A stretch of DNA of 64,000 bases, from positions 2,976,001 through 3,040,000 of the forward strand of contig NZ_CP069421.1 in NCBI RefSeq assembly GCF_018118585.1, written 5' to 3'. Position 1 is the stretch's first letter; every line of letters starts with the position of its first letter. The translations under genes and the position numbers were made by a program. The notes beneath the pieces are model-generated. The model ran no database searches and had not been told where the DNA came from. It saw nothing but the letters and a program-made list of their open reading frames with translations. This document shows, one piece after another, positions 1,850-46,479 of the stretch. This stretch comes from Aristaeella lactis (lineage in GTDB: Bacteria; Bacillota; Clostridia; Christensenellales; Aristaeellaceae).

Positions 1850-2002
1850 TCAGACGGGAGTAAAGGCATCCTTTCCGAGACCGCAGACGGGGCAGACCCA
1901 ATCCTCCGGGATGTCTTCCCACGCAGTGCCGGCAGCAATACCGCCTTCGGGGTCGCCGACTTCAGGATCGTAAATGTAGCCGCAGGGACATTCGTACTTC
2001 AT
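1850..2002 (-). CDS. Rubredoxin, 50 aa, with a shortened first metal knuckle
   Basis: A small one-iron electron carrier of the cytoplasm. The frame from ATG at 2002 encodes [20 protein letters not shown] at the start and ends with [17 protein letters not shown], the classical rubredoxin pattern. Length (50) is normal. The oddity is the first iron-binding knuckle, which reads C-P-C-G (Cys5, Cys7) where rubredoxins normally have C-x-x-C-G; the second knuckle (Cys37, Cys40) is canonical. The ribosome binding site AAAGGATGAAAACCG lies just upstream and a good promoter is 60 bases away. Rubredoxin usually feeds electrons to rubrerythrin, which is encoded 3 kb downstream. Confidence 0.9.
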
Positions 2003-2137: not shown

Positions 2138-2225
2138 ACAGACGCCGCGGACGGAAGGATATTTACGGGCTTCAGTCGAAAAGGAGAAAGGTCAATAAAG
2201 AAGATAACAGGAAGGGGGAACAGCT

Positions 2226-4850
2226 GTGGCGGAGAAACTGACGGTTGGCCTGGCGGCGCATGTGGACGCGGGCAAGACAACCCTGTCCGAAGCCATGCTG
2301 TTCCTTAGCGGAGCCGTGCGCCGGCAGGGCCGGGTAGACCACGGGGACGCGTTCCTGGATACGGAAACAATGGAGAAGGAACGCGGAATCACGATCTTCT
2401 CCAAGGAAGCCAGGCTGACCTGGCGTAAAACCGACCTGACGTTGGTGGATACCCCCGGGCATACGGATTTTGCCGGGGAGGCGGAGCGGGCCATCAGCGT
2501 GATGGACGCGGCGGTGCTGGTGATCAGTGCGACTGAAGGGATCCAGTCCCATACGCGGACCCTGTGGAAGCTGCTGGAAAGCAGCGGGGTTCCGGTGGTT
2601 TTCTTTATCAATAAAATGGACCGGTTTGCCGGGACCCGCGAGGAACTGATGACAGCCCTCGGAGCACTTTCGGACCGGGTCGCGGACTTTACCGGAGATC
2701 CATCGGAAGCGATCGCCCTGTGCGATGATACCTGCCTGGACCTGTTCCTGCGGGAAGGTTCGATCCCGGAATACCGGATCAGGGCGCTGGTCCGTGACCG
2801 GAAACTGTTTCCCTGCTTTTTCGGCGCGGCCCTGAAAAACGAAGGCGTTGAACCGCTGCTGGACTTCCTTGCCGCTTTTGCGGAGGAAAAGACATACCCG
2901 AAGGAGTTCGGCGCGCGGGTGTACAAGATCGCCCGGGATCCCCAGGGAAACCGGCTGACTTTCCTGAAGGTGACCGGCGGCGAGCTGAAGGCCCGGGACC
3001 AGCTGGCCGGAGGTTCCGGTGAAACTGCCTGGACGGAGAAAATCCAGGAGATCCGGCTGTATTCCGGAGCCCGGTATGCGGCAGTGCCGCAGGCAGCAGC
3101 GGGAGAACTGTGCTGCGTCACGGGACTGACCAAAGCCATGCCCGGGGACGGCCTGGGAACGGAAAATAAAGGCGGGGAGCAGACCCAGCGTCCCTGCTAT
3201 GCCTGCCGGGTAATCCCGGGGCCCGGGGAAGACCTGCATAAGGTGCTGGACTGCCTGGAAACGCTGACGGAAGAGGAGCCGCTGCTGCAGGCGGAGTTTA
3301 TGGAAGCCCGCCGGGAGATCCGCGTGCATTCCATGGGCGATGTGTACCTGGAAGTACTCCAAAGGCAGATGAAAGACCGGTTCGGGATTGAAATCTCCTT
3401 CGGGGAGACCAGCGTGCTGTACCGGGAAACCATTGCGGAAGCGGTGGAAGGTGTGGGGCACTATGAGCCGCTGCGGCATTACGCGGAGGTCCACCTGTGG
3501 CTGGAACCGCTGGAGCCCGGAAGCGGCCTGGTGTTTGACACCGATGTTTCCACGGACGATCTGGCCCTGAACTGGCAGCGGCTGATCCTGACCCACCTGA
3601 AAGAAAAGATCCACCGGGGCGTGCTGACCGGCGCGCCGGTGACGGATATGAAAATCACGCTGATCAACGGCAAAGCCCACCTGAAACACACGGAGGGCGG
3701 GGATTTCCGCCAGGCGACCTACCGGGCGGTGCGCCAGGGCCTGATGAAGGCCCGGAGCATCCTGCTGGAACCTTACCTGACACTGGAGATTACCGCGCCG
3801 CAGGAAAGCCTCGGGCGGATCATGAATGACCTGTCCATGATGGGCGGAAAACCGGAAGGGCCCGAGGACGCGGAGAAAGGGTTCCGGATCATCCGGGCGG
3901 TGGTTCCCGCTTCCGCCTGCCGGAATTATGCCCGGGACCTGAATGCCCAGACCCGGGGGTTGGGACGGATGACCTCCTCCTTTGCCGCTTACCTGCCCTG
4001 CGCGGACGCGGAGAGGATCATTGCGGAGAAAGGGTATGACCCGCTGCGGGATGTGGTGAACCCGCCGGATTCTGTTTTCTGTTCCCATGGCGCCGGGGTG
4101 GTTGTTCCCTGGGATGAGGTGGAGCAGTATATGCACCTGCCGCTGCGGGAAGCGGGGAAAAAGACGGATGCCGGGATCGCTGTCCGGACAGCCGGAAGCA
4201 CTTTTGCCCGGAGTTCGGCGGAGGAAGAAGAAGCTTTGCGGATCATCTTTGAAAAGACGTACGGTCCGGCAAAGACCCGCCAGCTGCTGAGACCGGTGCC
4301 CAAGGAAGAACCCGCGGCACAGCCGGAGGAAAAGCGGGAACCGGCTCCGGAAGGAGAGATCCTGCTGGTGGACGGCTACAACGTGCTGTTTGCCTGGGAT
4401 GAGTGGAAGGACAGCGTCCAGGAGAATTTTGACGCTGCCCGGATGCAGCTGACGGAGCTGATGTGCGATTACGCAGGCATGACCGGAAAGGAAGTCATCC
4501 TGGTCTTTGACGCCTATAAAGTCAAAGGCGGCATGGGCAGCGCGGAAAGATACAAGAATATCTATGTGGTCTATACCCGGGAAGCCCAGACGGCGGATGC
4601 TTATATTGAAAAGACGACCCTGCTGGCCAGGAACCGGGCGAGGGTGCGGGTGGTGACATCCGACAGACCGGAACAGCTGATCGCCCTGGGCAATGAAGCA
4701 TTGCGCACTTCCGCGCGGGAATTCCGGCGGGAGGTGATCGGCGTGCAGGGCAGCATAGCGGATTTCATCGCGAAAAACAACCGCCCCGGAACGGAACGAT
4801 CCCTGGAGCGGCTGTACAAGGAAGCCTGGAAAAAGAATAAAACAGAATAA
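2226..4850 (+). CDS. TetM/EF-G-like translational GTPase fused to a C-terminal Rae1/YacP-like NYN ribonuclease domain
   Basis: An 874-residue cytoplasmic protein. Residues 1 to about 650 match the ribosomal-protection (TetM/TetO/EF-G) family: P-loop AHVDAGKT at 11-18, RGITI at 53-57, DTPGH at 75-79, NKMD at 129-132, followed by EF-G-type domains II-V. A charged linker rich in Pro and Glu (about 685-708) leads to a NYN domain at about 711-850. That domain resembles Bacillus Rae1 (YacP), a ribosome-associated A-site mRNA endonuclease: ILLVDGYNV, VILVFDAYKVKG, TADAYIE, VTSD and ALRTSAREFRREV all align, keeping the acidic residues. GTG start with GGAAGGGGG 7 bases upstream. Tetracycline resistance should not be assumed. 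My inference is a GTPase that remodels the A site coupled to mRNA cleavage. Confidence 0.85.
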   Translation: MAEKLTVGLAAHVDAGKTTLSEAMLFLSGAVRRQGRVDHGDAFLDTETMEKERGITIFSKEARLTWRKTDLTLVDTPGHTDFAGEAERAISVMDAAVLVISATEGIQSHTRTLWKLLESSGVPVVFFINKMDRFAGTREELMTALGALSDRVADFTGDPSEAIALCDDTCLDLFLREGSIPEYRIRALVRDRKLFPCFFGAALKNEGVEPLLDFLAAFAEEKTYPKEFGARVYKIARDPQGNRLTFLKVTGGELKARDQLAGGSGETAWTEKIQEIRLYSGARYAAVPQAAAGELCCVTGLTKAMPGDGLGTENKGGEQTQRPCYACRVIPGPGEDLHKVLDCLETLTEEEPLLQAEFMEARREIRVHSMGDVYLEVLQRQMKDRFGIEISFGETSVLYRETIAEAVEGVGHYEPLRHYAEVHLWLEPLEPGSGLVFDTDVSTDDLALNWQRLILTHLKEKIHRGVLTGAPVTDMKITLINGKAHLKHTEGGDFRQATYRAVRQGLMKARSILLEPYLTLEITAPQESLGRIMNDLSMMGGKPEGPEDAEKGFRIIRAVVPASACRNYARDLNAQTRGLGRMTSSFAAYLPCADAERIIAEKGYDPLRDVVNPPDSVFCSHGAGVVVPWDEVEQYMHLPLREAGKKTDAGIAVRTAGSTFARSSAEEEEALRIIFEKTYGPAKTRQLLRPVPKEEPAAQPEEKREPAPEGEILLVDGYNVLFAWDEWKDSVQENFDAARMQLTELMCDYAGMTGKEVILVFDAYKVKGGMGSAERYKNIYVVYTREAQTADAYIEKTTLLARNRARVRVVTSDRPEQLIALGNEALRTSAREFRREVIGVQGSIADFIAKNNRPGTERSLERLYKEAWKKNKTE

Positions 4851-4859
4851 TTAAGGAAA

Positions 4860-4890
4860 GGGGAGTCCATACGGACTCCCCGATGTTTTT
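4860..4890 (+). terminator. Terminator after the GTPase-NYN gene
   Basis: GGGGAGTCC, loop ATAC, GGACTCCCC, then GATGTTTTT. It lies between convergent genes. Confidence 0.8.
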
Positions 4891-5152: not shown

Positions 5153-5695
5153 TTATTTACCGAAGTACCTCTCCAGCAGGCCCTTGAAGGCTTTGCCATG
5201 GCGGGCTTCGTCGCGGGCCATTTCATGCACGGTGTCATGGATGGCGTCGAGGCCCAGCTCCTTGGCCTTCTTGGCCAGGTCGGTCTTGCCCTGGGTGGCG
5301 CCGTTTTCGGCTTCCACGCGGACGCGGAGGTTTTCCTTGGTGCTGGGGGAGACTACTTCACCCAGCAGCTCGGCGAACTTGGCGGCGTGTTCCGCTTCTT
5401 CAAACGCGGCGGTCTTCCAGTATTCGGCGATCTCCGGATAGCCTTCCCGGGCAGCTGCGCGGCCCATGGCCAGGTACATGCCGACTTCGGTGCATTCGCC
5501 CTCGAAGTTGGCGCGCAGGCCGGCCTTGATCTCTTCCGGAACGTCCTTAGCGACGCCGATCACATGCTCGGACGCCCAGGTCATTTCGCCTTCCTGCTTG
5601 ATGAACTTGGAACCGGGAACCTTACAAACAGGACACTTTTCGGGCGGTTCGGGCCCTTCATGTACGTATCCGCATACGGGACATACCCACTTCAT
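5153..5695 (-). CDS. Reverse rubrerythrin (N-terminal rubredoxin domain, C-terminal di-iron domain)
   Basis: A 180-residue peroxide/oxygen-scavenging enzyme of anaerobes. The rubredoxin-type domain comes first ([14 protein letters not shown] ... CPVC, residues 1-35), followed by a ferritin-like four-helix domain with ligand motifs in [16 protein letters not shown] and [11 protein letters not shown]. This order is the reverse of classical rubrerythrin, as in the clostridial revRbr proteins, which reduce hydrogen peroxide and oxygen using NADH-derived electrons. I use ATG 5695, preceded by GGAGG at 8 bases; the upstream in-frame ATG at 5710 overlaps that site. Confidence 0.92.
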
Positions 5696-5745
5696 AATGT
5701 TTACCTCCATATTTTTTTGTCAAATCCGGCATTTTGCCTGAACAG

Positions 5746-15997: not shown

Positions 15998-16086
15998 GGA
16001 AAAATCCGGCCGGTGAGTAAAAAAATACAATCCGATCAGTACAGGACAGGAGAGAAAAAAGAGCATGGGGAAAAAGCCCCGGGCTC

Positions 16087-16115
16087 TTGCTTTTCATGGA
16101 AGAAAACGGTATACT
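16087..16115 (+). promoter_or_regulatory. Promoter of the SRP RNA gene
   Basis: TTGCTT (16087-16092), 17-base spacer, TATACT (16110-16115). It partly overlaps a GC-rich hairpin at 16059-16090 of unclear use. Confidence 0.7.
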
Positions 16116-16122
16116 ATCCATT

Positions 16123-16250
16123 GCCGTTTGCGCGATGAGGATTGGGTCCTGTGCGATCCTCCGGTGTGAACCCTGTCAGGTCCTGACGGAAGCAGCAGTA
16201 AGCGCTTGCGAGGATGTGCTGCGGGGCTGCCCGGTCTGAGCGCAGGCGGT
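16123..16250 (+). ncRNA. ffs: Signal recognition particle RNA, small bacterial type
   Basis: The conserved apical part is unmistakable: GTGAACC, then GTCAGGTCCTGACGGAAGCA and GCAGTAAGC, the site bound by Ffh. Lower helices pair GCGATCCTC with GAGGATGTGC. The outermost stem pairs CCGTTTGCGC (16124-16133) with GCGCAGGCGG (16240-16249), using G-U pairs, and runs into eight T (16250-16257), so the closing stem also terminates transcription. The 5' end is inferred from the promoter. The RNA guides signal-peptide-bearing ribosomes to the membrane together with Ffh. Confidence 0.92.
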
Positions 16251-16269
16251 TTTTTTTCTGTTCCGGGCC

Positions 16270-16297
16270 TTGAGAGTGTATGGAAATATGCTATACT
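16270..16297 (+). promoter_or_regulatory. Promoter of glyA
   Basis: TTGAGA (16270-16275), 16-base spacer, TATACT (16292-16297), 36 bases before the ATG. Confidence 0.6.
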
Positions 16298-24315: not shown

Positions 24316-24398
24316 GCCGAAGTGGCGGAATGGCAGACGCCGCGGATTCAAAATCCGTTGCCCTCAAAAGCGTGCGGGTTCAAGTCCCGCCTTCGGCA
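24316..24398 (+). tRNA. tRNA-Leu, anticodon CAA
   Basis: The 7-bp acceptor GCCGAAG/CTTCGGC has discriminator A. The anticodon stem GCGGA/TCCGT encloses loop TTCAAAA (anticodon CAA), a long class II variable arm follows, and the T arm is GCGGG-TTCAAGT-CCCGC. CCA is not encoded. A terminator-like hairpin (CCTGTAG/CTGCAGG, then TTTTCTTTTTT) follows at 24408-24440. The 3' end of this gene is the left boundary of the AT-rich island. Confidence 0.97.
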
Positions 24399-46383: not shown

Positions 46384-46385
46384 GA

Positions 46386-46479
46386 GTGAAATATTGGCCT
46401 TCGGCCAATGTGAAATACGGCTTCGCCGTGTGAAATATGCTTCGCATGTGAAATATTCGCCGCTGTGCGGCGAATGTGA
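46386..46479. repeat. Array of four hairpins spaced by TGTGAAATA
   Basis: The element reads (T)GTGAAATA, then TTGGCC-TTC-GGCCAA, TGTGAAATA, CGGC-TTC-GCCG, TGTGAAATA, TGC-TTC-GCA, TGTGAAATA, TTCGCCGC-TGT-GCGGCGAA, TGTGA. The spacer is exact in the three full copies (46409, 46429, 46447), while the palindromic arms differ in sequence and length. Confidence 0.8.

Follow-up and report, generated by a model that had tools for sequence, protein, structure and literature searches.

Tet proteins and EF-G-like factors bind in the ribosomal A site, and the docking of the ribonuclease Rae1 (YacP) in the same site is itself a model backed by cleavage data. Two reports describe Rae1 as an A-site endoribonuclease that cuts mRNA (PMC6613710, PMC12320835). 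The closest described system to the locus studied here is given in Atkinson 2015 (PMC4342817), according to which the Tet proteins of ten Clostridiales have gained a YacP-like NYN domain, maybe as a new resistance mechanism. Our search of the full-text literature for YacP or Rae1 together with a GTPase found no other account of such a fusion; the original Rae1 papers may mention one. The fusion is thus already known from 2015, and the novelty that an earlier note on this DNA had attached to it does not hold.

We analyzed the fused gene of Aristaeella lactis within a window of 64,000 nucleotides, that is, the whole stretch of DNA under analysis (contig NZ_CP069421.1, positions 2,976,001 to 3,040,000). 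The coding sequence (2226..4850, plus strand) begins with GTG and encodes an 874-aa protein in which an EF-G/Tet-like GTPase is fused to a Rae1/YacP NYN RNase domain. It is preceded by a ribosome-binding site, GAAGGGGG (2211-2218, plus strand), whose GGGGG is located 7 nt 5΄ of the start codon, and a terminator-like hairpin, assigned by consensus match only, lies directly 3΄ of the stop codon (4860..4881, plus strand). Because the upstream genes (rubredoxin and HAD hydrolase) are divergent and the downstream gene is on the opposite strand, the fused gene is probably transcribed alone and appears to be monocistronic. Genes for rubredoxin (50 aa, 1853-2002, minus strand) and rubrerythrin (5153-5710, minus strand) flank it. 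Neither an attenuator nor an antibiotic-inducible leader was evident by eye in the 5΄ region of the fused gene, which also gave no Rfam match; elsewhere in the window, Rfam identified a large bacterial SRP RNA, a tRNA and a Gut-1 RNA at 16079-16272, 24316-24398 and 46384-46459 (plus strand).

Pfam placed all domains of the protein above the cut-off apart from domain II. The G domain (residues 5-218, 2238..2879, plus strand as for all features below; GTP_EFTU, 3.2e-50) contains intact AHVDAGKTT, DTPGH and NKMD motifs. It is followed by domain II (residues 228-308, 2907..3149; EF-G_D2, 9.4e-5, 22.9 bits, under the cut-off of 27), a region that is included in the structural match of the modelled GTPase part to EF-G, and by domain III (residues 323-393, 3192..3404; EFG_III, 9.1e-8), domain IV (residues 397-509, 3414..3752; EFG_IV, 3.1e-19) and domain V (residues 513-594, 3762..4007; EFG_C, 5.7e-17). 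Within domain IV, loop I (GHYEPLRHYAEVHL, residues 411-424, 3456..3497) contains neither the GGRGQ insert of EF-G nor the VPPNPFWAS of Tet proteins, and loop III (HLKHTEGGDFR, residues 485-495, 3678..3710) has K487 and H488 at the places of TetM P509 and V510. A C-terminal extension with CSHGAGVVVPWDEVEQYMHL (about residues 600-638, 4023..4139) corresponds to the end point of unfused relatives. The linker (residues 639-709, 4140..4352) is mostly of low confidence with one predicted helix at 665-679, and leads to the NYN_YacP (Rae1) RNase domain (residues 713-869, 4362..4832), which carries D716, N719, D762, E786, D791 and D813 and matches the Pfam model at 1.6e-42 (145.8 bits against a curated cut-off of 24.6).

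The whole protein was modelled by AlphaFold2 on an alignment of 69 sequences (pLDDT 86, pTM 0.69). Residues 647-706 of the linker were mostly unstructured, with pLDDT values <50 at 647-664 and 683-706; with a pTM of 0.69 and a disordered linker, the model makes no prediction for the relative placement of the GTPase and NYN halves. In a motif-based count, the linker comprised 66-145 residues in 98 homologues and about 70 in the A. lactis protein. The NYN domain modelled alone (pLDDT 88) was aligned to Bacillus subtilis Rae1 with Z scores of 19.1 (5mq9; 1.8 Å, 134 residues) and 17.6 (5mq8), the next-best family in the structural search reaching a Z score of 8.3, and its sequence alignment to Rae1 (5mq8/5mq9) gave 2e-27. 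The model of the GTPase part matched EF-G and EF-2 (Z 36-41), and the alignment with archaeal EF-2 (6u43) extended to model residue 632. Among 69 fused homologues, mostly 43-50% and up to 85% identical to the A. lactis protein, D716, N719, D762, D791 and D813 of the NYN domain are invariant and E786 is kept in 66; K17, T56, K130 and D132 of the GTPase are likewise invariant, and H79 and N129 are kept in 68 and 67, respectively. The positions predicted to serve GTP hydrolysis, and likewise those of the presumed metal site of the NYN domain, are thus invariant or nearly so. The coordinates and domain reading of the earlier note, its intact G motifs and its Rae1-type NYN domain with an acidic site were all borne out; the NYN domain does lie at the C-terminus, with a length of about 157 residues instead of the 140 proposed.

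In line with the domain-architecture search that had been suggested, we scanned 84,980 species genomes (GTDB contig collection) by pattern and found the same domain order in at least 590 loci; among the matches listed were Lachnospiraceae, Oscillospiraceae, Anaerovorax, Fusibacter and one Erysipelotrichaceae MAG. As one ORF whose domain order recurs in this way, the fusion is confirmed as real and is neither a chance occurrence nor an assembly join. In our sample of Clostridia, it is spread over about two dozen families. The prediction that annotation pipelines would label it as tetracycline resistance was realized for an Agathobacter homologue, named in RefSeq ‘TetM/TetW/TetO/TetS family tetracycline resistance’, and a Monoglobus homologue is named ‘translation factor GTPase family protein’. 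Among 971 neighboring ORFs at 124 loci, no conserved partner was found, only common transporters and regulators. For the fusion, we rejected an origin from phages or mobile elements, since none of 49 relatives in viral contigs reached the NYN domain, and also a defence system, for which there was only a weak LeoA match in the GTPase region. Three IMG/VR contigs (L247, L248 and L275) carry unfused relatives (41-45% identity) near their ends, which are perhaps host flanks of prophages.

We compared the GTPase half with profile models of known families. The A. lactis protein scored 382 bits against the NCBIfam Tet model NF012153 (cut-off 775; TetM control 877), 260 bits against the M/W/O/S model NF033148 (cut-off 1100; TetM control 1339) and 287.6 bits against the NCBIfam EF-G model (cut-off 659); the genome carries separate EF-G-type genes besides the fused gene. 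In a quick-search tree of a single marker, to which a long-branch warning applies, the fused and unfused forms together were the sister of Tet (SH-aLRT 100 for the Tet clade and 99 for this family). Loops I and III vary hardly at all among the fused and unfused proteins and are wholly different from those of Tet proteins. Loop III reads HxKHTEGGDFR where Tet has YYSPVSTPADFR, with Lys487 at the TetM Pro509 place in 68 of the 69 homologues and His488 at the Val510 place in all 69; the comparison with Tet covered TetM, W, O and 36, all of which keep the YYSPVSTPADFR loop. In addition, the protein lacks the helix sequence found at the C-terminus of Tet proteins, and its C-terminal extension is unlike that of Tet. 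Loop III of TetM domain IV puts Pro509 into the tetracycline site (PMC7456112). However, because TetM S508A/P509A/V510A was reported to be still active (PMC4750697), the loop sequence alone is no disproof of drug release. Judged by these sequence comparisons, the GTPase half belongs to a family that is sister to the Tet proteins and not to Tet proper; in other words, it is probably not the ‘ribosome-protection GTPase’ of the earlier note, and the Tet version of the domain IV loop to which that note had looked for tetracycline release is not kept. Clostridia genomes, Paenibacillus and L. salivarius also contain unfused homologues of about 640-690 aa, most of which stop at the position corresponding to the start of the linker in the fused form; the L. 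salivarius UCC118 copy on pMP118 (L171) is labelled tetracycline resistance, and the Paenibacillus one (L172) belongs to the same GTPase family.

We then surveyed 293 Clostridia-class genomes, of which 287 were classifiable and six were ambiguous because of contig ends. The fusion was present in 97 genomes and a free NYN only in 76; 13 carried an unfused GTPase plus a separate NYN, 7 a GTPase without NYN, and 94 neither. About one-third of the surveyed Clostridia have Rae1 only as a fused domain. The fusion and a bona fide free rae1 occurred together in a single genome (G284; 1/97 fused genomes), compared with about 30 genomes expected by independence (97 × 90 / 287), a figure based on per-genome counts that ignore phylogeny. 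Candidate second NYN domains in three fused genomes of family f26 were 21-bit sub-threshold matches and were left out of the count. In G284, an intact free rae1 in the ancestral locus accompanies the fusion (L243/L189 at G284:C2; L242 at G284:C1:259416), a possible transition state. Neither the GTPase nor the NYN was found in the 15 listed members of the order of A. lactis outside its family.

The locus from which the free gene is missing points in the same direction. Free rae1 adjoins rlmB in 20 of the 21 loci with rlmB in view, in a slot between rlmB and sigH; the order rlmB-rae1-sigH is also that of B. subtilis. For that species, a yacO-rae1 operon is described in PMC6613710. The A. lactis genome encodes NYN_YacP once, in the fusion, and in its mrnC-thyX-rlmB-sigH locus the rlmB-sigH gap is 25 bp and rae1 is absent. 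Across fused genomes, a NYN follows rlmB in 0/49 cases, and sigH is next in 30/49. Relics of rae1 were detected in the rlmB-sigH gaps of G022 (35.7 bits; interrupted by stops and by a change of frame, with a further piece in a different frame that extends as far as the Rae1 profile does), G075 (17.6 bits), G097 (17.4), G156 (10.0 and 9.5) and G071 (8.9), against a best score of 6.3 bits in 50 shuffles per locus (relic loci L232, at G022:C1:321800-324900, L302, L303, L304 and L308). The gaps of G116 and G136 contained C-terminal rae1 traces at background score only. The two states also alternate within genera: in g29, G051 has an intact rae1 without the fusion and G022 has the fusion and the relic, and in g24, G206 has the free form and G017 and G047 the fused one. 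These results indicate that the fused protein, as far as gene content can tell, substitutes for free Rae1, the old gene being lost or decaying in place.

In a single-marker tree, the fused NYN domains formed one clade (100/99 support), bar one long-branch exception, with a free NYN of G209 nested inside, the only candidate for a detachment in the NYN tree. The simplest reading of this topology would be one fusion, followed by spread and few detachments. The G209 domain (L030, G209:C1:394804-395292; L157), which keeps LEKxR and whose genome has an unfused GTPase, could be either a detachment or a relic of the donor. Two very divergent fused proteins of family f6 (L169 and L170) show altered loops, RHTEGGDF and KHTEPPDF, and the NYN of one falls outside the main clade on a long branch. 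A C-terminal helix motif, LEKxRR, was found in 22 of 25 free Rae1 proteins (25/25 in relaxed form, the other three being close variants) and in 4 of 101 fused proteins, all weak matches. The motif covers R166 of B. subtilis Rae1 in the 5mq8 alignment, and R166P is among the loss-of-function rae1 alleles recovered in PMC6613710. The loss of the motif in the fused form fits ribosome targeting having passed to the GTPase. However, a single proline substitution may merely unfold the helix, which weighs against this targeting argument.

We consider it somewhat probable that the fused protein is the Rae1 of its lineage: an mRNA endonuclease that is coupled to translation and anchored to a dedicated translational GTPase, which brings it to ribosomes. 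This view builds on the architecture, the intact active-site residues in both halves, the single clade of fused NYN domains, and the replacement and in-place decay of rae1. More tentatively, and with a little less than an even chance, the GTPase might deliver the RNase to unproductive A sites, a GTP-gated mRNA surveillance in which one polypeptide both recognizes the stalled ribosome and cuts its message, and which has displaced autonomous Rae1 across much of Clostridia. Ribosome binding, the order of events, the substrate and rescue are inferred as follows. The GTP-bound EF-G-like part would bind ribosomes with an unproductive A site and be freed from it by GTP hydrolysis; the NYN domain on its linker of about 70 residues could then move into the emptied A site, or into that of an adjacent queued ribosome, and cut the mRNA there, after which tmRNA, which is encoded in the A. 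lactis genome, would take over the truncated complex. The earlier note had proposed one machine in one A site; domain IV and Rae1 cannot occupy the same A site together, and the halves would compete for it. Because both are placed in that site, their action has to be sequential on one ribosome or divided between neighboring ones. Nor is the pairing obligatory, given the 13 genomes in which GTPase and NYN are separate. Since 7 genomes have the GTPase without NYN and 76 the NYN without GTPase, neither half needs the other, and the 94/293 genomes with neither gene indicate that the function is dispensable. The earlier interpretation is thus partly supported, and gains new support from the mutual replacement of the fused and free forms of Rae1.

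A rival reading is a fusion of convenience: the NYN domain might perform ordinary Rae1 cleavage alone and the GTPase an unrelated EF-G-like task, with only co-production gained. The occurrence of each half alone in other genomes, the entire Rae1 catalytic body kept by the NYN domain and the long disordered linker are consistent with this. However, the fused form occurs in about two dozen families with very few detachments, and its NYN domain is without the LEKxRR kept by free Rae1, as if no longer self-targeting; the repeated decay of free rae1 beside the fusion also counts against convenience, although it shows replacement and not coupling. We therefore regard this explanation as unlikely. 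A resistance factor, as suggested in PMC4342817, is an improbable identity for the protein; it would then shield the ribosome from tetracycline or some other A-site drug, and the RNase would have an accessory part. Among named proteins its closest relatives are those of the Tet group, homologues carry Tet annotations, and the active TetM triple mutant (PMC4750697) makes the loop letters indecisive; on the other hand, the scores lie far from both Tet cut-offs (382 versus 775 bits; 260 versus 1100 for M/W/O/S), loops I and III are nearly fixed in a form wholly unlike Tet, the Tet C-terminal helix sequence is missing, the fused form was not found in viral contigs, and the gene is single-copy, in its own transcription unit and with neighbors that are not conserved.

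The RNase might also cut rRNA or tRNA on the ribosome rather than mRNA, in maturation, quality control or hibernation-linked turnover. An earlier proposal assigned NYN_YacP to the maturation of rRNA and tRNA (Anantharaman and Aravind, cited in PMC4342817), and free rae1 adjoins the rRNA methylase gene rlmB, with mrnC close. However, the close relative that has been characterised, B. subtilis Rae1, cuts mRNA in the A site according to published descriptions, and the fused gene no longer lies in the rRNA-processing locus, so that this substrate seems very improbable to us. Many gut Clostridia have their Rae1 concealed under a tetracycline-resistance label, and if the GTPase half targets the RNase, resistance surveys that count the fused gene as tet would need correcting. 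The within-genus swaps, with free Rae1 in one species and the fusion plus a relic in another, represent natural experiments.

Compared with known systems, the A. lactis protein resembles EF-G and archaeal EF-2 in domain order and fold (Z 36-41), and differs from EF-G in sequence (28-29% identity in the structural alignment) and in its loop I without GGRGQ. It shares with TetM, TetO, TetW and Tet36 the five-domain EF-G-like GTPase without the loop I GGRGQ insert, whereas the identity is 28-29%, the domain IV loops and C-terminal extension are different, and an RNase domain is added. The unfused ‘translation factor GTPase family’ proteins share with the fused form the loops HxKHTxGGDF and, in most cases, GHFEPLRHYAE and the end point after domain V; unlike it, they have no RNase domain, and several of their genomes contain a separate rae1. 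The Tet-YacP NYN fusions of Atkinson 2015 (PMC4342817) apparently have the same architecture, given in two sentences and Additional file 8; they are read there as Tet proteins that may have a new resistance mechanism, and the replacement of Rae1, the differing loops, the sister family without a fusion and the breadth of the fused form appear to be additions of the present analysis. Finally, unlike B. subtilis Rae1/YacP (5mq8, 5mq9), the fused form makes up the C-terminus of a GTPase protein of 874 aa, without LEKWRR and outside the rlmB-sigH locus, and yet the two share the NYN/PIN fold and, by alignment, the same acidic residues (D7, N10, D53, E76, D81 and D104 in Rae1).
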